A DNA stretch of 41,837 nucleotides from positions 1 to 41,837 of the IMG/VR virus record IMGVR_UViG_3300035680_000025; one strand, given 5' to 3'. The translations under genes were made by a program, and so were the position numbers. The notes beneath the pieces are model-generated. The model did no database searches, was not told the DNA's origin, and was given only the letters and a program-made list of their open reading frames with translations. Every line of letters starts with the position of its first letter. The stretch's first letter is position 1. Positions 1,011 through 38,999 of the stretch are shown here, one piece after another. The stretch comes from a virus.

Positions 1011-1396
1011 TTACAAACAAAACACAAACACAAAAGGATATTGATCAGATTGAAAAACTAGCTGACAATACAATCAGAGCTTTAAAGGCGGCGGTTTCAT
1101 CACTGAACAACTCTTTTGATTATTTTTGGAGTTTACCTAATGATAGACTCGAATCAGTTATAAATGAACTTTTAGTAAAAGGAGTTTTTGAAGATATATT
1201 CGAGAAACATTTCAAAACAGCTACAGCATTTAATAATATTCTTGCATCTAATGGAGTTATGGATATTAGATGCAAATCAGAAATACCGAAGGTGATGACC
1301 TTCGATGTGGAAGGTGTAAAAATATCTGAAAAAACACATGAATCAGAAGCGATTATGGAACCTGTGATTGTAGAAGAATCTATTCTCGAAGAATAA
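1007..1396 (+). CDS. Hypothetical protein, 129 aa, coupled to the tail fibre gene
   Basis: I do not recognise this protein. The ATG overlaps the stop of the fibre gene. The first ~85 residues look alpha-helical, with hydrophobic/charged heptad-like spacing, and the last ~25 are acidic (EE and ESILEE near the end). There is no signal peptide, membrane helix or cysteine pair. Its place between a fibre gene and a head-completion gene suggests a small virion or assembly factor, for example a fibre accessory protein, but that is inference from position only. Its stop codon TAA (1394-1396) is also the first three bases of the TAAATA element of the following gene. Confidence 0.6.
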   Translation: MITNKTQTQKDIDQIEKLADNTIRALKAAVSSLNNSFDYFWSLPNDRLESVINELLVKGVFEDIFEKHFKTATAFNNILASNGVMDIRCKSEIPKVMTFDVEGVKISEKTHESEAIMEPVIVEESILEE

Positions 1397-1404
1397 ATAA
1401 TCCT

Positions 1405-1869
1405 ATGGGTTCTTTGGGATTATCAAAACGGAATAATAAGTTTCATCAAGGTTTCTACGCACCCAAAAATCTAAATAAATATGTCGGCAATATTGATAAT
1501 ATTATATACCGATCCGGTTTGGAATTAAAGTTGTTTCGCTTTTGTGATAATAATCCCAATGTGGTGGAATGGAATAGTGAGGACATTATTGTGCCTTATT
1601 TCGATACTCTTTTGAAAAAGAATCGTAAATATTTTATTGATGCCTATGTAAAGATACAGGAAGGGGATATTGTCAAGAAATATTTGGTGGAAGTCAAGCC
1701 TTGGAAGCAGACGCAAGAGCCGAAAGCTGGGAAGGGTAAGAAGAAATCCAATCTGTTATATGAACAGGTTGCTTGGAAAAACAATTGTGACAAGTGGGCT
1801 TTCGCAAAAGAATTCGCCAAGAAACATGGGATGGAATTCATTATTATTACGGAAAAAGAACTAAATTGA
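1405..1869 (+). CDS. gp4: Head completion protein, gp4-like (TnsA/VRR-type nuclease fold)
   Basis: The 154-residue length and pattern fit the T4 gp4 head-completion family, which finishes DNA-filled heads before tail joining. Visible landmarks are the PKNLNKYVGN lead-in, IIYRSGLELK (Glu40), WNSEDIIVPY, FIDAYVK (Asp79), YLVEVKP (Glu96, Lys98) and a C-terminal FIIITEKEL. The E...D...E-x-K spacing is that of a restriction-nuclease-like core, so the active residues appear intact. TAAATA lies at 1394-1399, five bases before the ATG, and includes the stop of the previous gene. I see no Shine-Dalgarno sequence. It stands apart from the neck genes further downstream. Confidence 0.8.
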   Translation: MGSLGLSKRNNKFHQGFYAPKNLNKYVGNIDNIIYRSGLELKLFRFCDNNPNVVEWNSEDIIVPYFDTLLKKNRKYFIDAYVKIQEGDIVKKYLVEVKPWKQTQEPKAGKGKKKSNLLYEQVAWKNNCDKWAFAKEFAKKHGMEFIIITEKELN

Positions 1870-1902
1870 TATCAAAGTCCATTCATGGGACTAAATAATA
1901 CT

Positions 1903-3663
1903 ATGGGTGGAAAGTATCATAGTAATAAAGATGTTATAGATCATTTCAAAAGAATACACTGTGATAAATACGATTATTCATTAGTTCATTATACTGGTAA
2001 TCTAAATTTAGTCGATATCATATGTCAAAAACATGGAGTATTTAAGCAGTCTCCAAAAAAACATAAAATAGGTCATGGGTGTCATAAGTGTAATACCCAA
2101 AGAAAGCGAACTGAAGAGGAGGCAATTGAAGAGTTCAAAATAAAACACGGTAATAAATACGATTATTCGGATTTGGAATATAAAAACGGTTCCAGTCTGA
2201 TTAAAATAGGATGCCCAACTCATGGGTGGTTTTATCAAAAAGCCAGTGAACATAAAATCGGTTATGGGTGTGCTAAATGTGCCAATCACGAGAAAAGTCC
2301 CCCATATGAAGAATGGTTAAATTCGTGTGTTGAAAGACATAATAATTATTATGATTATTCTATTTCAAAATACGAAACATTGTCTAAATCAGTTAGAATA
2401 ATTTGCCCAAAACATGGAATTTTCACACAAAAGGCGGGAACACATAGAAATGGTAGTGGTTGTAAAAAATGTGGGGATGATAGAAAAAGTTTGAAATATC
2501 AACAATTATTTACCACGGAATCTTATATAGAAAAGTTAGAAGAAAAACATGGTGATAAGTATGATTATAGTAAGGTTAATTATACCACTTTAAAAAATCC
2601 TGTCACTCTTACATGTCCCAAACATGGAGACTTTACAAGATTTCCCCAAAATTTATTAAAAGGTGGTGGATGTGACAAATGTTTAGATGAAATCAGAGTT
2701 AAAAAATCTCTAACAAAAGTTAAAAAACATTTTAAACATAATAATTTCGAGTTGGTAATAGATGAAAGCAAGTTCAAGGGATTCAATAATGAGATATTTT
2801 TAACATGTTCAAAGCATGGAGAATTTGTAAGATTTCTTGATATGAATATTTTTGTTTTAAATCATCCGTGTTTAAAATGTGGGATGAAGATATCAAAATT
2901 GGAACAACGAGTGTCCGAAACGTTGGACGATCTTGGAATATCACACATCCAACACACTAGATATAAAGATGATAACGGTAAAATATACGAAATTGATATA
3001 TTAACCCCTGATTTGAGTATAGGGTTTGAGATTAACGGACTTAGATATCATGGAGAAGTTATGGGTAAGGATTCTGACTATCATAGGTGGAAAACCGAAG
3101 AATGTTATAAACGAGGTATAAAATTGACACACATTTATGAAAATGAGATTATAGGATCAGACCACTTCAAACACAAAATTTTCAGAGAATTGGGATTGAG
3201 AACCCAAGCAAATGACTCGTGTGTATTTGAATATGTTGGAGATGATTCCATAAATGATTTTATAATCAATAATCACCCATTGGGGTTGATGAAAAATTGT
3301 ATTAATATGGTTTGTTGTAATGATGGAGATATATATGGTTGTATATCGTTTAAAGATAACACTGTATTAAGAGTAGCCAATAAACACGATGTTGATATGT
3401 CTAAAGTGTTTCAATCTATGATAAGACAGTATATGAATGATCATGAATTAAATACAATAGTAAGTAATGTGTTATTTGATTGGGATGATCTTACACTATT
3501 TGAAGAATCAGGATTTATCGTCAAAGATACCATCGAACCAGTTTGTTGGAAATTTATCAACGCGAAACATGATAAGATTTACACCCACGATGAAGAATTA
3601 TTGGCTGATAATGTTGATAAATTTTGGGATACTGGTGGATATTTGATGGAATTTTTGATTTAA
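1903..3663 (+). CDS. Homing endonuclease: zinc-ribbon repeats plus Vsr-like (EDxHD-type) nuclease
   Basis: This is a 586-residue free-standing mobile endonuclease. The N-terminal half has four clear copies and one weaker copy of a ~60-residue unit: HGxKYDYS, then C-x2-HG-x-F, then GCxKC. This matches the DUF723-type zinc ribbon. A Vsr-like nuclease domain follows, with EIDILTPDLSIGFEINGLRYHGE at about residues 362-385 and a YHRWKTEECYKRGIKLTHIYENE segment. The C-terminal third is an unassigned domain. I chose the ATG at 1903, not 1885, because TAAATA (1892-1897) sits five bases upstream of 1903. It separates gp4 from gp21 and reads with them. Its sister is at 8178-9632. Confidence 0.75.
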   Translation: MGGKYHSNKDVIDHFKRIHCDKYDYSLVHYTGNLNLVDIICQKHGVFKQSPKKHKIGHGCHKCNTQRKRTEEEAIEEFKIKHGNKYDYSDLEYKNGSSLIKIGCPTHGWFYQKASEHKIGYGCAKCANHEKSPPYEEWLNSCVERHNNYYDYSISKYETLSKSVRIICPKHGIFTQKAGTHRNGSGCKKCGDDRKSLKYQQLFTTESYIEKLEEKHGDKYDYSKVNYTTLKNPVTLTCPKHGDFTRFPQNLLKGGGCDKCLDEIRVKKSLTKVKKHFKHNNFELVIDESKFKGFNNEIFLTCSKHGEFVRFLDMNIFVLNHPCLKCGMKISKLEQRVSETLDDLGISHIQHTRYKDDNGKIYEIDILTPDLSIGFEINGLRYHGEVMGKDSDYHRWKTEECYKRGIKLTHIYENEIIGSDHFKHKIFRELGLRTQANDSCVFEYVGDDSINDFIINNHPLGLMKNCINMVCCNDGDIYGCISFKDNTVLRVANKHDVDMSKVFQSMIRQYMNDHELNTIVSNVLFDWDDLTLFEESGFIVKDTIEPVCWKFINAKHDKIYTHDEELLADNVDKFWDTGGYLMEFLI

Positions 3664-3678
3664 AACATAAATAAGAAC

Positions 3679-4350
3679 ATGGCATTAAAACTAAAGCTGA
3701 TGTACAATGATCCCACCAACTTCGATGGATTGGAAATTGTCGAAGAACAGACTAATCGTGGAAGTGGTAGTAATCTATATGTGCAGGGGGTTTACCTTGG
3801 TTCGGAGATTAATAAGAACGGGAGAATCTATCCAGAGCATGAGCTTGATCGTGAAATTAATCGGTATCTGAATGAGATGGTTGTAACTAAACGATCACTT
3901 GGGGAATTAAATCATTCCAATACCAGTGAGGTAAATCCAGAGCGTGCATGTCACCTTGTTACTGAACTCAGGAAAGATGGTAAGGCATGGGTTGGGAAAT
4001 CAAAGATTCTCTCTGGAGAAGGCATGATATGTGGAAATATTGTTCGCGGACTCATCAATAATGGAGTTTCCCTCGGTATGAGTACTAGATCGCTTGGATC
4101 GTTGCGTGAAGCGTCTGGTCATAAGGTTGTGGAAAACATGCATTTGGTTGCAATCGACTGTGTTGCCGATCCATCATATCCAACAGCTTTTGTTGACGGT
4201 ATTCTTGAAAGTAAAAGTTGGACTATTACCGAAAACGGTGATTACGAACAAATCTACGAGGACTTTGGCAAAGCTCTAAAAACACTTCCAAAACACGATG
4301 TTGATAATTATCTTCGCGCACAGATCATAAAGTTTATCCAACAAATCTAA
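3679..4350 (+). CDS. gp21: Prohead core protease gp21 (serine peptidase, S77-like)
   Basis: This protease matures the T4-type prohead by cleaving scaffold and capsid proteins. The 223-residue protein has the family landmarks in order: NKNGRIYP (46-52), LGELNHS (74-80, probable catalytic His79), GKSKIL and GVSLGMSTRSLGS (129-141, probable catalytic Ser135). These are followed by HLVAIDCVADPSYP, in the usual place of the last core strand. It heads the capsid block gp21-core protein-gp22-gp23, the normal T4-family grouping. TAAATA at 3668-3673 lies five bases before the ATG. The assignment of catalytic residues is by analogy with T4 gp21. Confidence 0.88.
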   Translation: MALKLKLMYNDPTNFDGLEIVEEQTNRGSGSNLYVQGVYLGSEINKNGRIYPEHELDREINRYLNEMVVTKRSLGELNHSNTSEVNPERACHLVTELRKDGKAWVGKSKILSGEGMICGNIVRGLINNGVSLGMSTRSLGSLREASGHKVVENMHLVAIDCVADPSYPTAFVDGILESKSWTITENGDYEQIYEDFGKALKTLPKHDVDNYLRAQIIKFIQQI

Positions 4351-4358
4351 ATAATACT

Positions 4359-4895
4359 ATGGGCAAAACATATAAAGATTTGAAGAAACAGGGCAAGCAC
4401 GTTTTCGATGGACCGGAAGTGAAACAGCGCAAGAATTTTGCCCCCGCAACCAAAACGGAAAAGCCGAAGAAGGGCAAAGGATCGTATAATCGCGGGAACG
4501 CTTTTGATGAGGATGAGGAATCCGGTGATGATAAGAGAACCAAACGTATTAAACAGGCTGAATCCATGGGTTACAAGAAATTACCACAACATGATGCGGT
4601 TTGGACACATAAAGGTATGAAAATTTATGGAGTTAATAATCTCCCACCATTGAAAGATGAAAAAAATGATGAGGATGAGGAAAAAGCCTGTTGGAAAGGT
4701 TACGAAAAGAAAGGCACCAAGAAAAAGGGTGGAAAGACTGTCAACAATTGTGTGAAGGAATCAACCGATCTCTCCAAATTCATTGAGGCTATCATGACCA
4801 ATGATCATGCCCAAGCTCATAAACAACTCAAGGATGCTGTGAATTTCAAAATCCAACAGAGAATTGCTCAAGAAATCGACAATCCTTTGTTCTGA
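4359..4895 (+). CDS. Probable prohead core/scaffold component
   Basis: The protein is 178 residues and highly charged. Lys-rich and Asp/Glu-rich stretches fill residues 1-125, including a CWKGYEKKGTKKKGGKTVNNC segment that recurs in capsid-region proteins of marine T4-like phages. The C-terminus (from about 140) is helical: DLSKFIEAIMTNDHAQAHKQ and onward, ending RIAQEIDNPLF. It resembles the short assembly helices of T4-type core proteins. It sits between protease gp21 and scaffold gp22, where T4-like phages carry small core proteins (gp67/gp68 class). TAAATA at 4348-4353 starts with the gp21 stop codon and ends five bases before the ATG. The exact T4 equivalent is not clear. Confidence 0.55.
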   Translation: MGKTYKDLKKQGKHVFDGPEVKQRKNFAPATKTEKPKKGKGSYNRGNAFDEDEESGDDKRTKRIKQAESMGYKKLPQHDAVWTHKGMKIYGVNNLPPLKDEKNDEDEEKACWKGYEKKGTKKKGGKTVNNCVKESTDLSKFIEAIMTNDHAQAHKQLKDAVNFKIQQRIAQEIDNPLF

Positions 4896-4932
4896 TTTTC
4901 AAAAAATTCATACCCGATCTCTAAATAATAAT

Positions 4933-5820
4933 ATGAAGAAAAAAAGCACGAACCTTTTCTCGGAAGACATCCAAAAAAGTCTGGGACTCAGCGATGAATC
5001 CATCAAGGCAATTCAGGAATCCCTTGAATCCAAGATTGATCTGGCCGTTGAAGCTGCCCTTTTGGAACAGGATGAAGTATATGCCTCCAAACTCAAGACC
5101 CTGATGACATCCGTTGATAAGGATCGCACGGTCAAGATGAAAAAGATCATGGAAGCTTTTGATAGAGATAAGACCGCAAAGCTGGTCAAGGTTATCAAAA
5201 AGTATGAGCGCGAACAGAACGGCGATCTTCTCAAGTTCAAAAAACAACTTACGGAATCCGTTAGTGCTTTCCTTGACGAGTTCATTGATGAATCCATTCC
5301 AACCAAAGATATCAAGGAAGCTGTCAAGAACAAGACAGCCATGAATGTTCTGGAAAATCTCAAAAAGGTCTTTGCAATCGATCTTGCTGTCATGAAGGAA
5401 TCCGTATCTGGGGCAATCGTGGAAGGTAAGAGTGAAATCGACAAGCTCCGCAATAAGAATGCTGAACTTGAAAAGAACGTTCGCTTCCTCACCGAATCCA
5501 AGAACAAGTCGGAAGTCAAACTTTTCCTTGAAGGCAGAACTTCCAAGTATCCTGAAACCAAAAAGAATTTTGTGAAGAAGGCTTTGGGAGACAAGTCCCT
5601 GCAATTCATTCAGGATAACTTTGATTACACCGTTCGCCTCTTTGAAAAACAAGAGAAAAAGCAACTGGAAACCATCAAGGAAGAAGCTGTTCAAAACCGC
5701 AAGCACAAGCCCGATTTCGTAAAAGAACAAAAAATTGTTACTGAAAAGGTAAATAATAATACGGATGAAGAATCTGATCCTTATCTGGATGTTTTGAAAC
5801 AACAAACATTCCGTAGGTAA
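4933..5820 (+). CDS. gp22: Prohead core scaffolding protein gp22
   Basis: This 295-residue, almost wholly alpha-helical, Lys/Glu-rich protein between the gp21 protease and gp23 capsid genes has the composition and position of the T4 scaffold gp22. It begins with KKKSTNLFSEDIQKSLGLSD, has long coiled-coil segments (about 25-100 and 170-215), a conserved-looking FLEGRTSKYPETKKNFVKK block near 220, and ends DPYLDVLKQQTFRR. The start at 4933 is preferred over an upstream in-frame start because TAAATA (4922-4927) is five bases before it and the upstream 23 codons are low quality. Its 3' end contains another TAAATA (5750-5755) that may serve the capsid gene. Confidence 0.85.
   Translation: MKKKSTNLFSEDIQKSLGLSDESIKAIQESLESKIDLAVEAALLEQDEVYASKLKTLMTSVDKDRTVKMKKIMEAFDRDKTAKLVKVIKKYEREQNGDLLKFKKQLTESVSAFLDEFIDESIPTKDIKEAVKNKTAMNVLENLKKVFAIDLAVMKESVSGAIVEGKSEIDKLRNKNAELEKNVRFLTESKNKSEVKLFLEGRTSKYPETKKNFVKKALGDKSLQFIQDNFDYTVRLFEKQEKKQLETIKEEAVQNRKHKPDFVKEQKIVTEKVNNNTDEESDPYLDVLKQQTFRR
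5750..5755 (+). promoter_or_regulatory. Candidate late promoter for the major capsid gene, inside gp22
   Basis: The string TAAATAATAATAC has the same form as the elements that abut other starts in the window, but here it lies 128 bases before the capsid ATG. The base five after it is in gp22 coding sequence and is not a start codon. If it is a promoter, the gp23 transcript would have a leader of about 123 nt. I see no TAAATA or TAAGTA nearer to the capsid start. Confidence 0.4.
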
Positions 5821-7361: not shown

Positions 7362-8153
7362 TCAAGCAGTTACGCAAATCAAATCTGAAACCCAAGGTGC
7401 CGAAGACCCTTGGGTTTCCTCGTTTTTATAGGTATCGAATGTTCTTATCTCTGAAATATATTTTATAACCGTCTTAACTGGAAATGGGTGTTTTGTAAGT
7501 TTGGTTCTCTTCTTGAAGACATATTCGCCGTTTGTTCTGATGCGCGAGAATACATGATCTTCTGTTTTATATTCAGTTAGAAAATCTCTGAGTGTTTTAC
7601 TCTCAACGACAGACTTGCCATCGGGATATGATATCTCATACGTGACAATACCGAATCCATTATCTAGCATGAATTGTCTCTTTTTAATTTCCTTATCAGA
7701 TTTACCCTCTTTAGATTTTCTTAAATCCATCGTAGCTTTCCTTTTCTTTAAGGATTCTTTCCATTTATCATAATGTTCGGGGTCTTTATATTTTTCTTTA
7801 AGACCACTGCTTATTTTAGAATACACTTCATCCAATTCATTTTCATCCATGTATTCAGTGTAATAACCCCCCCTACCACCCTTTTGAATATTGTAACAAT
7901 TACTCTTACCGAATTTGTGGTGTAGCCTTCTGATTAACTTGATTTCCAATCTATTCAAGTCTTCTGGTGTAGTTATCTTTAAATTAAACCACCTAGTTTC
8001 AAAATTTTCTTTTCCATATTTGACCATAGCTTGGCGCAATCTATAACCAGAACCCATATATCTAGTTTTTGGATACCAATAATGTTTTCCCCCATAAACC
8101 TTGCCATTGATTTTGTTGATAGTGACGTATAATTTGAATTGTTTTCTGTTCAT
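7362..8153 (-). CDS. GIY-YIG family homing endonuclease
   Basis: The 263-residue protein has an N-terminal GIY-YIG-like domain: KLYVTINKINGKVYGGKHYW (the two tripeptides are LYV and VYG rather than GIY and YIG), then TRYMGSGYRLRQAMVKYGKENF and a LEIKLIRRLH segment with the expected catalytic-type Glu. NIQKGGRGG follows, then a Lys-rich DNA-binding tail. It is free-standing and lies antisense just after gp23. I use the ATG at 8153, eight codons inside the longest frame, because TAAGTA (8164-8159) lies five bases before it. The last ~15 codons run through the gp23 terminator, so the C-terminus is partly made of terminator DNA. Confidence 0.8.
   Translation of the reverse strand: MNRKQFKLYVTINKINGKVYGGKHYWYPKTRYMGSGYRLRQAMVKYGKENFETRWFNLKITTPEDLNRLEIKLIRRLHHKFGKSNCYNIQKGGRGGYYTEYMDENELDEVYSKISSGLKEKYKDPEHYDKWKESLKKRKATMDLRKSKEGKSDKEIKKRQFMLDNGFGIVTYEISYPDGKSVVESKTLRDFLTEYKTEDHVFSRIRTNGEYVFKKRTKLTKHPFPVKTVIKYISEIRTFDTYKNEETQGSSAPWVSDLICVTA
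7388..7426 (+). terminator. Rho-independent terminator after gp23
   Basis: A perfect 10-bp stem (7388-7397 with 7408-7417, aaacccaagg/ccttgggttt) with a 10-nt loop is followed by a T-rich run (cgttttta). It lies 38 bases past the capsid stop. It also falls inside the 3' end of the opposite-strand GIY-YIG gene. Confidence 0.85.
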
Positions 8154-8177
8154 GGTAATACTTAATACCGGAATCAA

Positions 8178-9632
8178 TTATTGCAATGATTTCCTCCACA
8201 CAAATTTATAATTACCACAATCATATATCTTATAAAAACCATTCATCTTCATATTATCCCCTTCACTCAACGACTCATCAAAGATTGGTAACTTATCTTC
8301 GAGCTTATGTTTCTGGAACTGATGGCGAGAATATCTAATACCTTCTCGCTTATTAAAATAATAATAATTCACCGCATCATTTTGAATCTCTTTCATACCA
8401 ACACTACGGTATATATTACCAATTGAATATCGCTTATCTGCGTAAGATACTATGGAATTTGGATTATAAGTTCTGATGAAGTGTTTGAACAACTTCTGAA
8501 ATCCACCGACTATCGAAGTGTTCAATACGTTGGCGAAACGAATAAGCTCCCATTCCACATTCTTATCGAATCTACTTTTACCAAATGTTAATATGGATAC
8601 CAATTGGTTATTGTAATAGAGTCCTAGCGAAATTGAACAATTGGAATATCCTTGTAGATGGTTGTCGTTTAGAAAATGTCTTGTATTGAAATTGTCAACC
8701 ATTCTTATTTCACATTTTCTAGCATGGATTTTATTGGGAACTTTCCCGAAATTATATCTAATAATGGATTTCCAAATCTCCTGTTTGTTCCGCCATTCAT
8801 CCTCAAATATGTGAAACAGACGAATACCAGATTCCAGACACTTATTTGTCTTGTATAAATGATAATGTTTGTCCTTACCTTCTTCTTCTGAATGACAAAA
8901 TAACCCGTTCATCTCAATTGCAATATTGTGTTTTGGGGATAGGACATCCAATTCTTTTTTATCTAAAATTTGTTTATCGTTTCTAATAATGTCGGTATCC
9001 AATTCAGACTCCACAAATTCTCTAAGTTCTTCTTCAATCTTAGATAGATTCTCAGCACATACTGGACATCTTGTTTTAGAGTGAAGAAGATTATCCGGTC
9101 TAACCAACCATTCTCCATGCAATTCACACACAGCTTTAATATGTGTTTTATTGTTTGTGTATTCCTGATTGGGAATTTGATATGATGTTAATTCCCTGAT
9201 CCTTTCAATCGTCAATCTTTTCTTTCCCGAACATTCGGAACAACCATATTGTCTTGCCAACAAGTGCTTGGGAGTGATTTGAAATTCTCCGTGTTTGGGA
9301 CATGCGATAATTCCTTTGGTGGTGTTGTTCTTATATATGAATTTAGAAAAATCATATTCCTGAAATTTCGAATATTTTTCTTTCAATTCTTCCATGAATT
9401 GTTCTTGGGTTCTTCGTTTGAATCCCCCTCTTGGGACACCCGCGCAATCAGGACAACCAGAACCTTGTAAATGATGTTGCTTGGAAGTTAGAAATTGACC
9501 ATGATCTTTACAAATCACAATCCCTTTATCATTCTTTTTACCGGGATAAATAAACATCGAATAATCATATCTATCCCCATGCTTCTCCTTGAAAAGTTTG
9601 ATCACTTCATCTGTTGAGTATTTTTTAGCCAT
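8178..9632 (-). CDS. Homing endonuclease: zinc-ribbon repeats plus Vsr-like nuclease
   Basis: This 484-residue relative of the 1903-3663 protein has fewer N-terminal repeats. There are two or three C-x2-HG-x-F ... GCxxC zinc-ribbon units (first at HGDRYDYS) and a short CELHGEW...CPVC unit. The nuclease follows: KELDVLSPKHNIAIEMNGLF, then CHSEEEGKDKHYHLYKTNKC and GIRLFHIFEDEW. A C-terminal domain (KIHARKCEIR, then FLNDNHLQGY and WELIRFANVL) is typical of this endonuclease type. The ATG at 9632 is chosen because TAAGTA (9643-9638) is five bases upstream and the 55 codons before it are not protein-like. It is followed after 24 bases by the GIY-YIG gene, so the two endonucleases form a mobile pair. 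Confidence 0.75.
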   Translation of the reverse strand: MAKKYSTDEVIKLFKEKHGDRYDYSMFIYPGKKNDKGIVICKDHGQFLTSKQHHLQGSGCPDCAGVPRGGFKRRTQEQFMEELKEKYSKFQEYDFSKFIYKNNTTKGIIACPKHGEFQITPKHLLARQYGCSECSGKKRLTIERIRELTSYQIPNQEYTNNKTHIKAVCELHGEWLVRPDNLLHSKTRCPVCAENLSKIEEELREFVESELDTDIIRNDKQILDKKELDVLSPKHNIAIEMNGLFCHSEEEGKDKHYHLYKTNKCLESGIRLFHIFEDEWRNKQEIWKSIIRYNFGKVPNKIHARKCEIRMVDNFNTRHFLNDNHLQGYSNCSISLGLYYNNQLVSILTFGKSRFDKNVEWELIRFANVLNTSIVGGFQKLFKHFIRTYNPNSIVSYADKRYSIGNIYRSVGMKEIQNDAVNYYYFNKREGIRYSRHQFQKHKLEDKLPIFDESLSEGDNMKMNGFYKIYDCGNYKFVWRKSLQ

Positions 9633-9682
9633 ACTATTACTTAACAGACTATCAGACCAAAAACAGATTTCAATAAAAATAT

Positions 9683-9710
9683 TTGACAAATTTAAAAATT
9701 GTGTTAAATT
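9683..9710 (+). promoter_or_regulatory. Sigma70-type promoter abutting a start codon
   Basis: TTGACA (9683-9688), 16-bp spacer, then TAAATT (9705-9710). The ATG at 9716 follows after five bases, so the predicted transcript start is at the ATG. Confidence 0.6.
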
Positions 9711-9715
9711 AATAC

Positions 9716-10150
9716 ATGACAGTATCAGAAACCGCAATCCAAAAAGCTTACGAGTTGGCAGAAATAGACGCTTTTTACGTTGAACGACCATATTCAAAAG
9801 AAACAGTTGAAAACCGTTTGAACTTGTTGGATTGGTTTAGGGGATGGTTTGATAAAAACGAAGAGGGTGATATTTATTGGGATAGCGGACGAAATTGGCT
9901 GTGCGAAGAAATCGAGGCATATTATAATGATAAAATTTTTGATTTAAAATATTCAAATGTGGCGAAGACACCGTTGGTAGTTAAATGGATTAAAATTCTA
10001 TCATTACCAAGATTCAATCTTCCACAATCCGCATATCATGAGGTTGCAGAAGATTTGGAAAAAATCGAGCTTGATAATATTGAAGCTGGAAAGGATACCG
10101 TGTCTTCCAAACTCATAGAATACTTTGAAAATAATTACCCAAATTACTAA
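9716..10150 (+). CDS. Hypothetical protein, 144 aa
   Basis: I do not recognise this soluble, mostly helical, acidic protein. It has Trp-rich patches (LLDWFRGWFDKNEEGDIYWD and WLCEEIEAYYND) in the first half and a Leu/Glu helix near residues 120-140. There are no metal-binding clusters, membrane helices or nucleotide motifs. It starts a new + strand unit after the two antisense endonucleases, driven by its own sigma70-type promoter, which suggests expression earlier than the capsid genes. Its stop TAA (10148-10150) forms the start of the late-type TAAATA element for the next gene, so the two genes may be expressed at different times. Confidence 0.65.
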   Translation: MTVSETAIQKAYELAEIDAFYVERPYSKETVENRLNLLDWFRGWFDKNEEGDIYWDSGRNWLCEEIEAYYNDKIFDLKYSNVAKTPLVVKWIKILSLPRFNLPQSAYHEVAEDLEKIELDNIEAGKDTVSSKLIEYFENNYPNY

Positions 10151-30099: not shown

Positions 30100-30405
30100 G
30101 TGGATCAAGAATTAAAAAACATCTATTCCGATATTATTTTGGAATACCAATCGGGTTTCAATCCTCCCCAAAGGGTTCCCAAGCAAGCGGTTCCCGATGA
30201 AGCTGGGGGTAAATTATCATATGGTAAGATTAAAATGGGAATGGTCAACACTCCAGTAACTACCAATGTCTATGGGGAACAGGAGGAGGAAGCTGAAGGT
30301 ATTTTAAAAATTATTCAGGATGTGGAATCGGAATATCGGGGGGATTCTCCCATAAATAATGCCGTGAGATTGGCATTCGGCAAATTAAAGGAAAAATTGG
30401 CATGA
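30100..30405 (+). CDS. Hypothetical protein, 101 aa (GTG start)
   Basis: The longest frame runs back into clpP, but TAAATA (30089-30094) lies five bases before an in-frame GTG at 30100. This gives a protein starting MDQELKNIYSDIILEYQSGF. It has a Pro/Gly turn-rich middle (NPPQRVPKQAVPDEAGGKLS) and a helical C-terminus with an acidic stretch (EQEEEAEGILKIIQDVESEY). It is not recognised. The next gene's ATG overlaps the stop. It is one of two genes here where the promoter-like element picks out a GTG start. Confidence 0.6.
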   Translation: MDQELKNIYSDIILEYQSGFNPPQRVPKQAVPDEAGGKLSYGKIKMGMVNTPVTTNVYGEQEEEAEGILKIIQDVESEYRGDSPINNAVRLAFGKLKEKLA

Positions 30406-30654: not shown

Positions 30655-31323
30655 TTATTGAAGATTTTTATTGTTTATGGAGATTTTTTTATCTTCTTTA
30701 GATTTTAGAAGATTTTCTATACCCCATAACGGGCGAAGATTTACATAATTAAAACATTTGAATTGTTCTTCAGGGATGGATAAATCAAAAGAACAACAAG
30801 GAATAATGTGATCAATATGCCACTCACCATAATTATCCCATGACATATTTTCTTGAAATTGATTTTGAAGATGCAGCTTAAAAAAATCTACATCACAACC
30901 AAGTAATTCTATTGTCGATTTCGACTTACATTTCCCATGTAAAGCTCTTCTAATTCTTATTCTTAAACGTTCAGATAAAACATGGTTTATATTATGTTTT
31001 CCTCTGCTGTGATACCATTTATTGATATTTCTCCTCTGAGAACCAGATTCTTTTCGCTGTTTATATACAGCATCCCAATTATTTTTCCGCCACTCTTGAT
31101 TTCTTTCATATACCTTTTTTCTATTTTTTTCAGTATATCTTCTTTGGCTTTCTAAGTCTTTTTGTTTATATTCTGGATTGTTTCGATAAAAGGTTTTCGA
31201 TTCCTTATCATATTTTCTTTTAATTTCCAATTGTTCGGGAGTCATGTCTTTTCGTGGTAGATTCCACCATAATGATACTCCTTCTGGGAATTTTGGTCGT
31301 TGTATTTCGATATCATCTTGCAT
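30655..31323 (-). CDS. HNH homing endonuclease
   Basis: The 222-residue protein has a Lys/Arg/Asn-rich helical N-terminal two thirds (including the repeats KRKYDKESKTFYRNNPEYKQ and RKNNWDAVYKQRKESGS). A LLGCDVDFFKLHLQNQF segment leads to an intact HNH core: MSWDNYGEWHIDHIIPCCSF, then FNYVNLRPLWGIENLLKSKE. The His-Ile-Asp-His pair, the N-x-x-NLRPLW loop and the final N-x-x-K-x-x-K are typical of phage HNH endonucleases. The ATG at 31323 is chosen because TAAATA (31334-31329) is five bases upstream; the longer frame is unsupported. It lies just before the endolysin gene. Confidence 0.85.
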   Translation of the reverse strand: MQDDIEIQRPKFPEGVSLWWNLPRKDMTPEQLEIKRKYDKESKTFYRNNPEYKQKDLESQRRYTEKNRKKVYERNQEWRKNNWDAVYKQRKESGSQRRNINKWYHSRGKHNINHVLSERLRIRIRRALHGKCKSKSTIELLGCDVDFFKLHLQNQFQENMSWDNYGEWHIDHIIPCCSFDLSIPEEQFKCFNYVNLRPLWGIENLLKSKEDKKISINNKNLQ

Positions 31324-31359
31324 AATCATATTTAACATGATTATGACAATATGCAACAA

Positions 31360-31938
31360 CTACCGATTCACTGCTTCGTGGTGCATTGCATCGTATCCCC
31401 AAAAAGCACCAGCGGCAATCCACCCCTCACGGGCAAAGCATTCCATAATCTCCAATGGCATATCTGATTTCATTGGCCAGCTATCGCGGAAAGTATTATC
31501 ATCGGCATCCAAATCAATGGCAGCACCATAGGCATGTAGAGAATAAGAAGAACCTCCACGCTTCAAGCGGAAATTGAAAACGCCCCCATAATCTTCAGCT
31601 TCATCTTTAATATCTGGATATTTTGGAATTATATCCTTAATGTTGTTCAATACCCTCAAAAGAGAATCCACACATTTCTTATTAACACGGGTTTTAGTAA
31701 CCAATTTACCACCATAATACATTGGGTATGGAAAGTTGATCATTACGAGATTTGATTCGTCTCCGGGTTTTCCGTAAAATTTAGTTAAGGATGCTTGATC
31801 ACTTTTTGGCCATGGGTTGTTCTTAGGCATCAGAGAGCGTAGATATGTTTTACATGCGGCTTGTGATTTCGGACCCCAAAATCCATCAACAGTTGTTCCG
31901 ATTTTTTTCTGCATTTTTTTAATTTCATCGCTATTCAT
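31360..31938 (-). CDS. Endolysin: peptidoglycan-binding domain plus M15 peptidase
   Basis: The 192-residue lysis enzyme has an N-terminal peptidoglycan-binding repeat (IKKMQKKIGTTVDGFWGPKS then QAACKTYL, about 6-33). A metallopeptidase domain of the M15 (VanY/DacA-like) family follows, with SSYSLHAYGAAIDLDADDN (His-x6-Asp zinc ligands) and YDAMHHEAV (the third His ligand). It should cleave peptide cross-links in cell-wall peptidoglycan. There is no signal sequence or membrane helix, so a holin is needed; none is certain here. TAAGTA (31949-31944) lies five bases before the ATG. It sits next to a DUF1353 gene often found with lysis genes. Confidence 0.85.
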   Translation of the reverse strand: MNSDEIKKMQKKIGTTVDGFWGPKSQAACKTYLRSLMPKNNPWPKSDQASLTKFYGKPGDESNLVMINFPYPMYYGGKLVTKTRVNKKCVDSLLRVLNNIKDIIPKYPDIKDEAEDYGGVFNFRLKRGGSSYSLHAYGAAIDLDADDNTFRDSWPMKSDMPLEIMECFAREGWIAAGAFWGYDAMHHEAVNR

Positions 31939-31946
31939 AAAAATAC

Positions 31947-32354
31947 TTAGTCCAATCCATATTTTTCAAATCTCTTTCTCCAGATAAAATAAGAACCCGC
32001 AACAACAGCAGAATAAATCGTCCATCTCATGGGAAGAGATACCCCAGCCTCTTTCATCAATTCTAAAAACATCCAGTTGGATTCCTTCCAAGTGAATTTG
32101 TCGTTGAATGGAGAGAAGCACCAATCATGAATCAGAGCCGCTGGAAAAGCTCCTCCAAATGGCCCGACAATTGGCCAAGCGAATTTCGGGGAACTGATCC
32201 CATCAGTGATGAATCCTTTCTTTACGGTGATGAGATGATTCTTATAAAAACAGCGAAAATTCTCCCCCAACTCAAATTTTCGGGTTCCTTTATGGATACC
32301 CAAATCTTTCAGATATATCGTATCAGGAAAGGTGTTTTTATTAACGGTGGTCAT
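31947..32354 (-). CDS. DUF1353 family protein
   Basis: The 135-residue protein follows the DUF1353 pattern found in many phages beside lysis or structural genes. LITVKKGFITDGISSPKFAW is followed by IVGPFGGAFPAALIHDWCFS (the G-x-x-x-PAA-x-IHDW motif), ESNWMFLELMKEAGVSLPMR and a final hydrophobic AVVAGSYFIW helix. The conserved His-Asp and Asp residues suggest an enzyme, but no activity is known to me. TAAATA (32365-32360) lies five bases before the ATG. Its position upstream of the endolysin on the same strand hints at a lysis or virion role. Confidence 0.72.
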   Translation of the reverse strand: MTTVNKNTFPDTIYLKDLGIHKGTRKFELGENFRCFYKNHLITVKKGFITDGISSPKFAWPIVGPFGGAFPAALIHDWCFSPFNDKFTWKESNWMFLELMKEAGVSLPMRWTIYSAVVAGSYFIWRKRFEKYGLD

Positions 32355-32367
32355 AATAATATTTAGC

Positions 32368-32395
32368 TTGACATTGGGAAATATTTTATTATAGT
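32368..32395 (+). promoter_or_regulatory. Sigma70-type promoter abutting the thyX start
   Basis: TTGACA (32368-32373), 16-bp spacer, TATAGT (32390-32395), then seven bases to the ATG at 32403. GTG 32394 and ATG 32397 in the same frame fall in or just after the -10 box and would be upstream of transcription. It diverges from the late-type element of the DUF1353 gene only two bases away. Confidence 0.7.
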
Positions 32396-32402
32396 GATGG
32401 AA

Positions 32403-33038
32403 ATGAAAGCAGAACTAATGAATTATTTTGGAGACGATTTAATGATCGTCAATGCGGCTAGAGTTTCTTTTGGGAAAAATAAAAATATTTTGGATGAGAA
32501 AGATGAAAAGCTGATCAAGTATTTAGTGGAGCATAAACACACAGCACCTTTTCGACATCCCCAATTACAATTCAGAATTGAATGTCCTATCTTTGTGGAA
32601 CGACAGCTTTTCAAACATCAGGTAGGATTATCAGCCAACAGTATTAGTGGTAGATATGTGGATTTCTCCGATAATTATTATCATGTTGAGGAGCTTAGAC
32701 AACAATCGTCTTCGTCCAAACAAGGGAGTGATGGGTTGTTGAATAGACCGGATTTGATTAGCCAAATGGATCATCATATTACATTGGGTAAGAAATTGTA
32801 TAAGGAATTGTGTGATGCTGGTGTTGCCAAAGAACAAGCTAGAGTTATCCTGCCGCTTTGTTTGGAGACGCAATTTATCTGGACTGGATCGTTGTTGGCA
32901 TTCATTCATATGTGGAAATTGCGGTTGAAAAGTGACACCCAACAAGAAACAAGAGAAATTGCCCAACAGATGTTTGATCTTGTTAAAAACATCGAGGGGA
33001 ACCCGTTTGAACACACTTTAAACGCTTGGGGATATTAA
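32403..33038 (+). CDS. thyX: Flavin-dependent thymidylate synthase ThyX
   Basis: The 211-residue enzyme makes dTMP from dUMP using FAD and methylenetetrahydrofolate. It starts MKAELMNYFGDDLMIVNAAR and contains HKHTAPFRHPQLQFRIECPI. The ThyX motif region is RQLFKHQVGLSANSISGRY (67-85); where most ThyX have RHR, this has Lys71-His-Gln73. Later come EQARVILPLCLETQFIWTGS and an RLKSDTQQETREIA segment with the usual Arg/Gln substrate residues. Its start is fixed by the sigma70-type promoter. With nrdA/nrdB it completes a dNTP supply route, although it lies on the other strand with a different promoter class. Confidence 0.9.
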   Translation: MKAELMNYFGDDLMIVNAARVSFGKNKNILDEKDEKLIKYLVEHKHTAPFRHPQLQFRIECPIFVERQLFKHQVGLSANSISGRYVDFSDNYYHVEELRQQSSSSKQGSDGLLNRPDLISQMDHHITLGKKLYKELCDAGVAKEQARVILPLCLETQFIWTGSLLAFIHMWKLRLKSDTQQETREIAQQMFDLVKNIEGNPFEHTLNAWGY

Positions 33039-33039
33039 T

Positions 33040-33779: not shown

Positions 33780-34084
33780 GCCTTTGGTTTCAATCATTTG
33801 TTTTAATTGGCTGTTGTTTGATCCTGAAATACGGATCAATCCTTGAGCCTATTCGTGTCTTTCTCAGACAATGGGAATTCTTTGAAAAGCTTCTCAAGTG
33901 CTGTATGTGTATGGGCTTTTGGGTGGGAGTATTCTTTGGAATATTCTGGTCTGCCCACATTTGGGAGATTCCGCTTTGGGGATTCTACGCATCTGTAATC
34001 TGCTGGTTTGCAGACTATCTGACGATGGTGCTTGACAAATATCTGGATGATGGTAAAGTGGAGGATGAAGAAATTACCAAATAA
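33776..34084 (+). CDS. Small membrane protein, 102 aa
   Basis: The protein has two or three hydrophobic segments: WFQSFVLIGCCLIL, CCMCMGFWVGVFFGIFW and IWEIPLWGFYASVICWFADY. A KLLKCCMCMGFWVGVFFG motif recalls the C-x-x-C-x-G-F-W-x-G pattern of small phage inner-membrane proteins. The C-terminus is acidic and cytoplasmic (KYLDDGKVEDEEITK). It could be a holin candidate by size and topology, but it sits in the thyX unit rather than next to the endolysin. ATGA couples it to the previous gene. A promoter for the next gene lies in its last codons. Confidence 0.62.
   Translation: MSLWFQSFVLIGCCLILKYGSILEPIRVFLRQWEFFEKLLKCCMCMGFWVGVFFGIFWSAHIWEIPLWGFYASVICWFADYLTMVLDKYLDDGKVEDEEITK
34032..34059 (+). 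promoter_or_regulatory. Sigma70-type promoter abutting a start codon, inside the upstream gene
   Basis: TTGACA (34032-34037), 16-bp spacer, TAAAGT (34054-34059), then GGAGG and ATG at 34065. The GGAGG touches the ATG with no spacer, so it cannot serve as an ordinary Shine-Dalgarno site. The promoter is embedded in the end of the membrane-protein gene. Confidence 0.5.
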
Positions 34085-34599: not shown

Positions 34600-34653
34600 G
34601 TGTAAGAATGCTGGATTAAAAACTAGATTATTATAAAGTGATTAAATAATCAA

Positions 34654-35418
34654 ATGGAAAGCTTCAAGACATTTTACGAAAAATTTGTAAACGGGGAACT
34701 CCCCCCAACCAACCGTAGGCGTAGGATGCTTCTGGAGGCGCAATACACTTACCCATCCACCGGAGATAAGGCGATAATGGATTTATATGCCTTATATGCC
34801 CTGTGGTGGGAGCTTGGAGGGGGTAAGGCTTCTTATGGCTACGAAGACACCAACGTTCGCAATTATAAGGTCAGGGAAAAGGTTGACCGCTATTTTGAGG
34901 AAGCTCTGGTGGTTATTTCCAATACCCTTTTGGAAGAATCCAAGGAAGCCATTGCAGATGAAGCTGAAAATATCTTCGACGAATACCTAATCCCCTCTCA
35001 AGTGGTGGTGGATTGGTTTAAGGAAAATGATATGATGCCAAAATTGGCAAAAGCTTATAATGGCGGTAAAGGGGGAATTTGGTTCTCCGTGTTTGATTAT
35101 GGGGATACCCTTGATATATTATCCGCGCCATTTTGGGAACAATATGCAAATCTTTATGGTGGGGATAAATGGGTGACTATTACGGAAACCACCCGCCAAC
35201 TGGATAATGCTATTCGTAGGGAGAAGGTTCAAAATCTTATGAACGCCTTTGTCAAATTCATGGACTTGGAACACAATACTGGAAGTCTTTATTCCAAACT
35301 TAAAAGAATGAAAGTATCCAAGGAAACACTTGATCTTCGGGCGGGGTTCCGTTCAGCGGAGGATTTTAAACCGCATGTCAGTCCCCAAGTGGCGAAGCTG
35401 ATTGGGCTTGTGAGATAA
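34654..35418 (+). CDS. Hypothetical protein, 254 aa
   Basis: This soluble, helical, charged protein begins MESFKTFYEKFVNGELPPTN followed by a basic RRRR patch. It has DLYALYALWWELGGGKASYG, an acidic helix (EESKEAIADEAENIFDEYLI) and a Gly/Trp/Tyr-rich centre (AYNGGKGGIWFSVFDYGDTL). The start resembles proteins of the same phages that open with a short helix plus Pro-Pro, but I cannot name it. TAAATA (34643-34648) lies five bases before the ATG, so it is probably a late gene. It converges with the CCA enzyme gene across an inverted repeat. Confidence 0.65.
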   Translation: MESFKTFYEKFVNGELPPTNRRRRMLLEAQYTYPSTGDKAIMDLYALYALWWELGGGKASYGYEDTNVRNYKVREKVDRYFEEALVVISNTLLEESKEAIADEAENIFDEYLIPSQVVVDWFKENDMMPKLAKAYNGGKGGIWFSVFDYGDTLDILSAPFWEQYANLYGGDKWVTITETTRQLDNAIRREKVQNLMNAFVKFMDLEHNTGSLYSKLKRMKVSKETLDLRAGFRSAEDFKPHVSPQVAKLIGLVR

Positions 35419-36942: not shown

Positions 36943-36946
36943 ATTT

Positions 36947-38971
36947 TTATAGATATTTATAATAGAGTTTATACAATTGTGGATAATTGTATTTTTTGGA
37001 TAAATCTTCAAATTCTTCAGGGTTGGTTGCTACGGTTTTCAACATGTGTAAGGCATACAATCTAAAAGCATTTATAATGTGGGGATACATATCATCAACA
37101 AATTGAACGAATTGATAATTTTTATTATCCATTTTGGGAAAGAGCATTTTGAGATTTGTGAATTCCAAATCCCCATAATTGAAATGTGTATTACCCGACA
37201 ACATATAATCAACCCCATCCAGAGGATTGGAATACGACTCGAAAAATTTGTCAAATTGTAACTGCGCCGGATCATTATCCAACTTCGGTTTGAAATTTTC
37301 CATAGCCAGTTTTGTTATGATGTTTTCCAACACTCCTTTTGATTGACCATGTTTACTATCCATAACACCCTGAAGAGCATGGCGGAAATCCTCAAGAATA
37401 ATAAGTCTGCTTGGAAATCTTACAGTAAAGGATTTCCTGACATCGTTGCCTGAAATTGTCAGGGTGTCGAACGGTTCTTCTTCCATTTCAATATAATCTT
37501 CAATCATGGAGAAATTGCTATCTCCGCTTGCAGCGGTTTTTATAAACCCACCATCAATAAGCACTGTATAAAGCTCATCCTCATCATCCAACATATCCTC
37601 AATCTTATCGTCAAAATTCTTCATATAGTGACAATATGTATCAAATTTATCGGAATCATTATGATATTCCTCTTCTGAAAAGTGGATTTCCAAGCTGGTG
37701 TTGGTTAGGATCATTCGATATATGTTGATGTCGGTAGCGTCATATATGTATTGGAACAATTGGGAATACTCATAATCATCATCATATTTCCCATCCCTAG
37801 CTTTACTCACATCATAATCTTCAGCTTCCAACTCGACATCATCCGGTAAATTGAACTTGGTTAAATCGATGGTTGATGTTCCGCTTGCTTGGAAATATAC
37901 TTCTTCATCGTCCATCAAGTAATAATCAACACTACTATATGTCAACCTGCCGTTATATTCCTCTTTTATTTCTTCCAGTTCATCTTCCAGACCCAATTGG
38001 GAATGTCTGCTTTCCCCCCTTTCATCATCCCGATCATGGTTTATTCGTTTGAAATCGGATGAGTCTTGGGTGGATTCCTCATCCGTGAAATAATTGGCAA
38101 CCAGATCAAGGATTTCATCATCATAATAAGTTCCCCCCTTTTTCGTATAGGAATTACCACGGAAATCTTCGGGAGTGGTTGTTTGTTTATTTTTCAGATA
38201 ATTTACCAAGGATTTGTAGAAATTGGGGATTGCGGTATCTCCATATATCTTGGTATCGGGAATGGCAATCTCATCTCCGTAATCATCCACCAATCGACGA
38301 ACACGCAAACGGGACATGGGGCGCAATCCATATGCACCGGATATGCCCCTGTCGGAATCAACGAATATTTCCCTCTTCTGAAAGTCCTCTTCCGTAAGCT
38401 CATTGAAATCCTCTTCTCGCACCACATAAGCCACAGCACCTCCTGAAATGGCTTCTTGGATGGCACACTGGAAATATCCCCCACCTTGGGAATGACAGGA
38501 TGATATGTTGCGGTGATCGGACATGCGAACCACATCAATGGGAGCGCGGGAAAGGATGACTATGAATTCCGGTTTCTCAAACGCGGATTCCAGATTGTCC
38601 TTATACATTGCAAACCAATCCAGATATTTTTTCTTTTTATTCTCCGATACTTTCAGGGCAGCAATGGCTTTACCAATGTTGATTTTCTGTTCCTTGTGTT
38701 CCCCCTGCCCATATTTTGGATCAAGCTTTATTTTTCTGATGACTTCCCCTTTTTTCAAATCCACCTTGTCAAAATGCTGAATTCTTTTCAGGTCATCCAT
38801 GATACTCTGAGCCGTGATGTCCGTCCCGATTGGAAATGCCACACGCATTTTGTCTCCAAAAATATGATCAAAAGGTAAGACATCCGAATGTTGGTTGAGA
38901 TAATCCACGACCTTTTGGTTCATCTCTGTGATGAGGACGGATTCGTAGAGTTCTTGGAGTTGGAAAATCAT
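36947..38971 (-). CDS. Large conserved phage protein of unknown function, 674 aa
   Basis: The protein starts MIFQLQELYESVLITEMNQK. A central part has PEFIVILSRAPIDVVRMSDH, RNISSCHSQGGGYFQCAIQE, AISGGAVAYVVREEDFNEL and LRPMSRLRVRRLVDDYGDEI. This I recall as a conserved block (PIDxxRMSDH...SCH...Y...A) in large myophages, with no known role. The second half is very acidic (DDDEDE-rich runs). The His/Cys-rich SDH...CH segment might bind a metal or substrate. TAAATA (38982-38977) five bases before ATG 38971 sets the start; the longer frame runs into the tRNA array. The CCA gene follows four bases after its stop. Confidence 0.65.
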   Translation of the reverse strand: MIFQLQELYESVLITEMNQKVVDYLNQHSDVLPFDHIFGDKMRVAFPIGTDITAQSIMDDLKRIQHFDKVDLKKGEVIRKIKLDPKYGQGEHKEQKINIGKAIAALKVSENKKKKYLDWFAMYKDNLESAFEKPEFIVILSRAPIDVVRMSDHRNISSCHSQGGGYFQCAIQEAISGGAVAYVVREEDFNELTEEDFQKREIFVDSDRGISGAYGLRPMSRLRVRRLVDDYGDEIAIPDTKIYGDTAIPNFYKSLVNYLKNKQTTTPEDFRGNSYTKKGGTYYDDEILDLVANYFTDEESTQDSSDFKRINHDRDDERGESRHSQLGLEDELEEIKEEYNGRLTYSSVDYYLMDDEEVYFQASGTSTIDLTKFNLPDDVELEAEDYDVSKARDGKYDDDYEYSQLFQYIYDATDINIYRMILTNTSLEIHFSEEEYHNDSDKFDTYCHYMKNFDDKIEDMLDDEDELYTVLIDGGFIKTAASGDSNFSMIEDYIEMEEEPFDTLTISGNDVRKSFTVRFPSRLIILEDFRHALQGVMDSKHGQSKGVLENIITKLAMENFKPKLDNDPAQLQFDKFFESYSNPLDGVDYMLSGNTHFNYGDLEFTNLKMLFPKMDNKNYQFVQFVDDMYPHIINAFRLYALHMLKTVATNPEEFEDLSKKYNYPQLYKLYYKYL

Positions 38972-38999
38972 GTTATTATTTAAGGGATAATGTGGAAAA

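Follow-up and report, generated by a model that had tools for sequence, protein, structure and literature searches.

A hexamer resembling the T4-type late promoter, at a fixed distance from start codons, points to leaderless late transcripts in a lineage of T4-like phages

Why should a promoter-like hexamer stand at one and the same distance from the start codons of genes as different as those for capsid parts, lysis and endonucleases? The question is raised by the IMG/VR fragment IMGVR_UViG_3300035680_000025, a stretch of 41,837 bases which was analysed whole and is called the window here, and in which TAAATA or TAAGTA (together TAARTA) recurs immediately upstream of genes. PHROG matches for neck, protease, major head protein, portal, adaptor, endolysin, ribonucleotide reductase (RNR) and thyX assign the window to a T4-like myovirus, whose portal protein is 29% identical to that of the best-matching isolate. 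We argue, at a probability of roughly 0.8, that these elements are leaderless late promoters, that some earlier promoters are probably leaderless too, and that the phage lives in a host whose translation is independent of Shine-Dalgarno (SD) pairing. The hexamer would be the -10-like element of a T4-type late promoter, to which the host RNA polymerase is directed by gp55, a sigma-like protein of the phage; as the hexamer ends five, sometimes six, nucleotides before the start codon, transcription would begin at the A of the AUG or a few bases off, and the late mRNA would have neither a leader nor an SD site. Two further promoter-like classes, a middle/early block and a sigma70-like promoter, often share this spacing, so that many promoter-proximal genes would yield leaderless mRNAs, read by ribosomes which do not need SD pairing.

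We define the spacer as the number of nucleotides between the end of TAARTA and the start codon, a hexamer at spacer 5 thus covering positions -11 to -6. The initial annotation had listed 22 window starts with a spacer of exactly 5, and all 22 are as described, 20 of them ATG and two GTG under the same rule; its three extra cases also hold, with 6 nt at 18829 and 30052 and 7 nt at 17274, where the open reading frame (ORF) has merely 47 aa. In a census of 57 greedily chosen frames, taking each ATG, GTG or TTG in the first 300 nt, spacer 5 occurred 22 times, spacer 6 twice and all remaining spacers from 0 to 29 at most twice each. The comparison with shuffled controls which that annotation had proposed gave the same picture: among motif-blind starts, that is, gene calls made without regard to the hexamer, 15 of 52 had it at spacer 5, while 300 dinucleotide shuffles averaged 0.11 and never exceeded 2. 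The window holds 67 TAARTA in total, 22 of them at spacer 5; the shuffles gave 59.85 in total (standard deviation 7.23); the hexamer count is ordinary, and the signal is therefore one of position. Nor does the choice of starts explain it, since the start is the first possible one of its frame in 12 of the 22 genes and an upstream in-frame ATG is missing in 15 of the 22. The rule is not followed everywhere, as 30 other candidate window starts had no hexamer at spacer 5 or 6. They include thyX, the genes of the two RNR subunits, the major head protein gene (5884) and a helicase gene (13643). Overlap with another gene, or a position closely behind one, is frequent among them, and six (9716, 10687, 12907, 32403, 34065 and 40592) have another promoter-like element. 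The major head gene, with no hexamer near its start, probably depends on upstream transcription.

The window portal protein was used as query to collect 59 IMG/VR loci, a redundant set with some near-identical members, in which hexamers before an ATG with an open frame of at least 60 codons lay at spacer 5 in 235 cases and at spacer 6 in 92, with at most 13 at each other spacer from 0 to 24. Six relatives were analysed as whole contigs of 82-207 kb, namely G004 (178 kb, portal 100% identical), G001 (207 kb, 91%), G003 (184 kb, 90%), G002 (198 kb, 90%), G006 (150 kb, 82%) and G008 (82 kb, 60%); the phages of this lineage have 34-39% GC. Motif-blind starts at spacer 5 numbered 45/336 in G001, 41/252 in G004 (shuffle mean 0.43, maximum 3), 42/289 in G003, 43/294 in G002, 33/194 in G006 and 18/105 in G008. 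In the same order spacer 6 was found 7, 4, 4, 5, 10 and 3 times, and all other spacers from 0 to 44 combined gave 14-32 per relative, spacer 5 being the commonest in all six. A flat distribution of distances, which according to the initial annotation would speak against leaderless transcripts, is thus not what we observed, as spacer 5 dominates in the window and in each of the six relatives. When all hexamers were screened at 41 spacers against motif-blind starts, TAAATA at spacer 5 ranked top in the window, G004, G002, G006 and G008 and stood within the nine listed signals in G001 and G003, while the top strings in T4 were SD sequences.

The arrangement differs from that of T4, S-PM2 and Syn9, in which no motif-blind start had the hexamer at spacer 5 (0/251, 0/225 and 0/186, respectively) or at spacer 6, and in which hexamers within 44 nt of a start lay mostly 17-41 nt upstream (29/39, 32/39 and 26/29). 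Counts of the plain pattern TAAATA-N5-ATG against the reversed pattern were 48/3 in G001, 49/3 in G002, 49/3 in G003, 45/0 in G004, 48/4 in G005, 41/1 in G006, 30/0 in G007, 21/6 in G008 and 6/2 in G009, as compared with 10/5 in T4, 5/3 in S-PM2, 3/3 in Syn9, 6/6 in P-SSM2 and 2/2 in KVP40. The T4 count of 10 against 5, in a genome with no called start at spacer 5, tells that it is the called starts which matter. Ten further phage records gave no clear excess except in PTm1 (20 vs 5 reversed) and Mosig (11 vs 3), where called starts with TAARTA at spacer 5 were 0 and 6/181, respectively.

The spacing is also kept between orthologues. With a looser hexamer, [TA]AA[AG]TA, 23 of 100 reciprocal best pairs between G004 and G006 kept spacer 5 on both sides, five kept spacer 6 and 52 had neither; spacer 5 was present only in G004 in five pairs and only in G006 in four, seven pairs shifted from 5 to 7, 6 or 4, and in four more just one member had a hexamer, at spacer 4, 6 or 7. 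Chance matches may account for some of the changed pairs. Kept spacings accompanied differing spacer sequences at protein identities down to 31% (G004/G006) and 28% (G004/G008). Among the portal-neighbourhood loci, where spacer sequence and flanks also differ, the portal gene (18829) was preceded by the hexamer in all 58 loci, at spacer 6 in 55 and at spacer 5 in three, with 24 distinct upstream sequences. Spacer 5 was found in 30/30 loci for gene 22860 (15 distinct upstream sequences, protein identity 48-100%), in 26/26 for gene 23174 (10 distinct), in 13/13 for gene 18480 (three distinct) and in 10/10 each for the endonuclease VII-like gene 21691 and gene 21765 (two distinct each). Gene 23203 had spacer 5 in 35 of 38 loci and 6 in three (19 distinct upstream sequences), gene 24364 had spacer 5 in eight of 10 and 6 in two, and gene 11734 had spacer 5 in 26 of 37, spacer 6 in one and no hexamer in 10. 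Gene 17374 was variable, with 14 of 54 loci at spacer 5, five at 6, 23 at 7-13 and 12 without the hexamer. Pooled over the six relatives, TAAATA occurred 200 times at spacer 5 and TAAGTA 22 times (0.5 expected), and TAAAAA only twice (9.1 expected), which argues that the T at -7 matters.

What the element is can be judged from its sequence, its genes and the machinery encoded with it. The TAAATA/TAAGTA core is kept as in the TATAAATA-like -10 element of the T4-type system, while the two bases 5' of the hexamer are unlike the TA of T4, in G001 and G003 being C or T at -12 and, in 55%, A at -13; positions -30 to -14 were not conserved to a comparable degree, so that no -35 element is apparent. 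The T4 late box is 8 bp long and opens with two bases at -13/-12 (PMC2988020), and this geometry would put the +1 on the sixth base after the hexamer; at spacer 5 that base is the first of the start codon, A or G. A pyrimidine directly precedes the start codon in 89% of 269 spacer-5 genes as against 61% of 953 element-free genes. PHROG matches in the window and G004, which include T4-type portal, major head protein, neck, tail sheath, baseplate and terminase, bore out the statement that the hexamer spans virion, neck, lysis and endonuclease genes: the window hexamer genes include neck, protease, portal, adaptor, tail chaperone, endolysin and endonucleases. In G004 the hexamer precedes 59 genes at one of these two spacers, 5 or 6, and of 20 scanned outside the part shared with the window ten had a PHROG match, six for virion or packaging proteins (sheath, terminase, baseplate wedge, tail tube, tail-fibre assembly-like and baseplate hub), two for homing endonucleases, one of unknown function and one weakly kinase-like. 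Homologues of gp55 were found with one query in all six relatives (E 9e-16 to 1.3e-13) and not within the 41.8-kb window, itself a fragment; the gp45 sliding clamp is present in all six and the gp44 clamp loader in five, G008, the 82-kb fragment, being the sixth. RegA, the translational repressor of T4, was not found by iterated HMM search in the six relatives, and its loss would fit leaderless genes. Orthologue spacing of 5 or 6, gp55 and gp45 in all six relatives and use at late genes all agree with the leaderless late transcripts that the initial annotation had proposed, and from these sequence data we infer that the element is a promoter, that its +1 is the start codon and that the mRNA is translated without a leader.

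SD matches were scored as 4 nt within -20 to -4 and compared with an upstream control. The window and the six relatives together have 332 genes whose hexamer lies at spacer 5 or 6, and only nine of these had a match, a lack which is partly forced as the hexamer itself fills -11 to -6, so that the fair test lies in the other genes. In the six relatives the hexamer-free genes had SD matches at or below control (e.g. 16/220 in G003, control 15%), as against 134/217 hexamer-free and 27/32 distal-hexamer genes in T4, which are mostly SD-led, and 93/151 in the pelagiphage HTVC008M. The suggestion that the phage is built around leaderless translation is supported for the hexamer genes and needs widening, the remaining genes of the six relatives being without SD excess as well, so that the lineage is SD-poor throughout. 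In 177 element-free genes lying at most 10 nt from the upstream gene (G001 and G003), A peaks at -3 (0.58), -6 (0.51) and -12/-13 (0.50, 0.52), and A at such positions of the initiation region is reported to matter in Flavobacterium johnsoniae (PMC6847099). As these close-packed genes would sit in longer mRNAs, the host must presumably accept both kinds of SD-less start.

A second class of element, TTAAAAACTAG-N2-TANAAT-N6-ATG, is common in four of the six relatives (G001-G004). G004 has 23 genes with this block, all on one strand and 19 of them at 144-176 kb; the 10 longest were scanned and gave five PHROG matches, to a primase/helicase-like ATPase, a DNA-binding protein, two unknown proteins and a virion structural protein, the last of which speaks against an early role. 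Among 249 blocks in G001-G004, index 23 of the block starts an ATG or GTG in 151, with an ATG and open frame in 142, and an ATG at this index places TANAAT at -12 to -7. A pyrimidine precedes the start in 94% of 207 block genes, being C in 76%. In the 98 blocks without ATG or GTG at index 23 a pyrimidine(-1)-purine(+1) step lies at index 22-23 in 81 (25/31 in G001, 31/36 in G003, 23/26 in G002), and at other positions in at most 33, save index 25 (51) and 27 (59), which are created by start codons at 26. Since the step is kept where there is no start codon, the predicted +1 at index 23 would be independent of the start codon.

The third class, which is rarer, was sought as TTGAC-N17-20-TANNNT followed at 5-7 nt by an ATG with a frame of at least 40 codons. 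Such an ATG was found at 5 of 13 sites in the window, 12/64 in G001, 8/62 in G004, 9/67 in G003, 4/71 in G002, 8/52 in G006 and 3/41 in G008, as compared with 0 or 1 among 3, 21, 16, 20, 27, 31 and 13 sites, in the same order, when the -35 element was reversed, and with 2/42 in T4, 1/74 in S-PM2, 1/66 in Syn9 and 3/77 in HTVC008M. A few of these sites double as second-class blocks, and most TTGAC/TANNNT sites are without such an ATG. A TANNNT whose first T lies about 12 nt before the start codon is a published sign of leaderless bacterial genes (PMC3160421). The leaderless geometry put forward for late genes thus reaches beyond them, as two further promoter-like classes share its geometry, one of which is common only in the four closer relatives. 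A wider reading, in which sigma70-like, middle and gp55-late promoters all obey one rule with +1 at the A of the start codon, leaders and SD sites having been abandoned, is tentative and in our judgement rather doubtful, being weakened by this restriction of the middle block.

Several observations weigh against leaderless late promoters or limit the support for them. The six relatives are non-independent samples. Hexamer-free genes of the window showed a slight SD excess (6/25 vs control 12%), as did small distal-hexamer classes (e.g. 3/16 in G003, control 0), and the late consensus includes A at -3 and -6, which are known translation-enhancing positions. The co-activator gp33 was found in none of the six relatives by an iterated HMM search which a diverged gp33 could escape, and which was positive in T4, S-PM2, Syn9, HTVC008M and Mosig; the gp55 homologues are short, and their alignment ends in an acidic tail in which the hydrophobic clamp-binding C-terminus of T4 gp55 is not visible. 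With gp33 undetected and an acidic tail in the gp55 alignment, activation is unlikely to match that of T4 exactly. The predicted late +1 is a purine at 76% of the sites in T4 (29 sites), 75% in S-PM2 (24 sites) and 92% in Syn9 (13 sites), which is weak support as it is not unique to this offset, offset 1 being 100% purine in Syn9. In the relatives, 63 sites have their ATG 7-19 nt away; 48 of them have a purine at the predicted +1, but 47 have one at offset 8 and 45 at offset 1, and only G stands out, with 15 at offset 6 vs 2-8 at offsets 1-5 and 7-9; base composition at spacer 6 was set aside as an uninformative test, since it did not locate the +1. In the second class, G004 has the pyrimidine-purine step at index 22 in only two of five informative blocks, and a block with ATG at index 23 was found three times in G006 and not at all in G008. 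G006 (L152-L159) has a diverged variant, TAAAAACCACATTAAACT, in place of the TTAAAAACTAG block, about 9 nt from the ATG, and applying the same geometry there would predict a leader some 3 nt long. In G001 (L073) the TTAAAAACTAG...TAGAAT of two blocks ends immediately before the first base of the tRNA genes at contig positions 59643 and 59738, and a start at index 23 would there fall inside the tRNA, a misfit.

Could the hexamer with its A/T-rich tail (TAAATAATAAT-ATG) be a Kozak-like translation signal for SD-blind ribosomes of the Bacteroidota type, on mRNAs which start further upstream? The missing SD excess in the six relatives would suit such a signal, and so would the A peaks at -3, -6, -12 and -13 in close-packed element-free genes, two of which (-3 and -6) recur in the late consensus. 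We nevertheless regard it as unlikely, because the T at -7 is needed though an A would serve a ribosome as well, because the hexamer coincides with the core of the T4 late box and is found at late genes, and because many late genes would be left without a late box, TAARTA further upstream being rare. PTm1, a Tenacibaculum (Bacteroidota) phage, has no SD excess (14/294, control 43) and is A-rich from -14 to -11, yet has TAARTA at none of its called starts at spacer 5, at three at 6, six at 7 and five at 8; as gp55 was not found there (best E 1.6), it serves as a control for SD-less initiation only. Still less probable is a late promoter whose initiation slips upstream or is heterogeneous, giving leaders of 1-5 nt which would likewise carry no ribosome-binding site. 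Spacers of 6, 7 and 8 do exist as minor classes, the portal gene keeps spacer 6 in nearly all its loci, and the ATG lies 3 nt further downstream in 39 middle blocks; against these stand the predominance of exactly 5 in each relative and the 151 of 249 middle blocks in which index 23 is the first base of the start codon. Chance, or an artefact of picking starts in an AT-rich genome, for which one could cite the commonness of TAARTA without over-representation, is contradicted by shuffles, motif-blind starts, reversed-pattern controls and orthologue conservation alike and is hardly credible.

Within the window, the plus-strand TAAATA-N5-ATG elements precede the head closure (neck) gene 1405 (1394..1407), an HNH endonuclease gene 1903 (1892..1905), the head maturation protease gene 3679 (3668..3681), genes of unknown function at 4359 (4348..4361) and 4933 (4922..4935, immediately 5' of the major head gene), genes 10159 (10148..10161), 11734 (11723..11736), 18480 (18469..18482) and 21765 (21754..21767), and the head-tail adaptor gene 23203 (23192..23205). 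On the minus strand the same element precedes the endonuclease VII-like gene 21691 (21689..21702), genes 22860 (22858..22871) and 31323 (31321..31334), the tail assembly chaperone gene 32354 (32352..32365) and gene 38971 (38969..38982), which encodes 674 aa of unknown function. TAAGTA-N5-ATG stands, all on the minus strand, before a homing endonuclease gene 8153 (8151..8164), an HNH endonuclease gene 9632 (9630..9643), gene 23174 (23172..23185) and the endolysin gene 31938 (31936..31949), and the two GTG starts, both on the plus strand, are those of gene 24364 (TAAGTA, 24353..24366) and gene 30100 (TAAATA, 30089..30102). Upstream of gene 34654 the middle-type block TTAAAAACTAG (34616-34626) and then TAAATA-N5-ATG form a tandem (34616..34656, plus strand), of whose two elements only the late one would give leaderless RNA. 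Longer spacers are found at the portal gene 18829 (TAAATA-N6-ATG, 18817..18831, plus), a head maturation protease-like gene 30052 (TAAGTA-N6-ATG, 30050..30064, minus) and, as a weak member, ORF 17274 (TAAGTA-N7-ATG, 17272..17287, minus).

The middle/early-type block occurs in the window as TTAAAAACTAGAATACAAT-N6-ATG at gene 40592 (40590..40617, minus strand), with the +1 predicted at the A of the ATG. The five sigma70-like elements, all on the plus strand with TTGAC-N17, continue as TAAATT-N5-ATG at gene 9716 (9683..9718), TAAGAT-N6-ATG at the glycosyltransferase gene 10687 (10653..10689), TATCAT-N6-ATG at 12907 (12873..12909), TATAGT-N7-ATG at thyX (32368..32405) and TAAAGT-N5-ATG at ORF 34065 (34032..34067), which is the weakest and has a spacer reading GGAGG. 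This class suggests other starts for thyX (32403 rather than GTG 32394) and for the ORFs at 12907 (rather than TTG 12883) and 34065. The TAA of the hexamer is at the same time the stop codon of the upstream gene in the ORF list at window 1394 (gene ending 1396), 4348, 10148, 11723 and 31949 (gene 31947-32354); an automatic count gave 4/22 in the window and 8/61, 8/57, 9/50, 11/55, 3/45 and 2/21 in the relatives. Five endonuclease genes lie among the head and tail genes, at 1903, 8153, 9632 and 17144 (homing or HNH/GIY-YIG) and 21691 (endonuclease VII-like), and four of them, 17144 being the exception, have a spacer-5 hexamer. Six consecutive tRNA genes (Pro, Tyr, Thr, Glu, Asn, Lys) occupy 39091-39721 on the minus strand.

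Compared with the T4-type late system of T4, KVP40 and S-PM2, the lineage is alike in the TAAATA core without a visible -35 element, in its gp55 and gp45 homologues and in use at virion, lysis and homing-endonuclease genes, and unlike it in the spacer of 5 nt, the TAAGTA variant and the lack of a detected gp33 and of a T4-like gp55 C-terminus. HTVC008M has TAARTA at spacer 5 at 11 of 178 starts (shuffle mean 0.56, maximum 3), and in one 15-kb stretch all seven spacer-5 starts are RefSeq starts. There TAAATA stands at spacer 5 at 6280, 7562, 11972, 16007(-), 18916(-), 18943 and 19456, among them genes for tape measure, end protector, head closure and tube cap. HTVC008M and Mosig (Kyanoviridae), both pelagiphages, thus have the same spacing in a weaker form and as a minority class, most other genes being SD-led. 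A related pattern is therefore not confined to this lineage among T4-like phages. Among the matches listed we found no leaderless late transcripts of a T4-like phage in the open-access literature. T4 late promoters and leaderless mRNAs are each known already; what would be new is a T4-type late box in leaderless use. In the Thermus phage phiYS40, middle and late mRNAs are reported to be mostly leaderless, with a change in IF2/IF3 (PMC3594737). It resembles our lineage as a lytic phage with leaderless mRNAs and differs in its host, Thermus thermophilus. No T4-type gp55 late box is known from phiYS40. Leaderless genes of Actinobacteria and Deinococcus-Thermus (PMC3160421) share the first T of TANNNT near -12 with the middle and sigma70-like classes, to which the lineage adds a gp55-type box in phages of low GC. 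AR9 was considered as a leaderless precedent and rejected, as it has leaders of 26-491 nt.

As to the host, psbA (PF00124), present in Syn9 and P-SSM2, is absent in G001-G006, and a cyanophage host was rejected on this ground and because the nearest isolate is so distant by portal. A scan of genome contigs returned one distant relative, with a portal 39% identical, in a metagenome-assembled genome (MAG) of Chitinophagaceae (L160, 5001-6728); among 29 TAARTA listed at this locus an open frame stood once at spacer 5 and once at 6, with no preferred spacing, and the MAG has no excess of TAAATA-N5-ATG (155 vs 158 reversed). The endolysin matches 165 records, 146 of them from Flavobacterium phages, its best matches being other phages, and matches of the RNR are spread over many unrelated phages. 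These endolysins and the initiation-region bases hint at a Bacteroidota host; the TTGAC/TANNNT promoters do not.

If a T4-type late promoter is indeed fused to the start codon, transcription and translation would start from one signal in this lineage. Dozens of genes in each genome would then carry a prediction that can be tested; the fusion would also fix gene starts in related metagenomic phages and would be a strong hint that host translation is SD-independent. Late promoter prediction in pelagimyophages was unsuccessful according to PMC7029224, and a box lying a few bases from the start codon may explain this failure. Should the more doubtful reading of one rule for all three promoter classes also be true, the promoter would set the start of the reading frame and free the phage from SD recognition, and the phage would favour its own mRNAs through leaderless initiation, possibly by reprogramming host initiation as in phiYS40.

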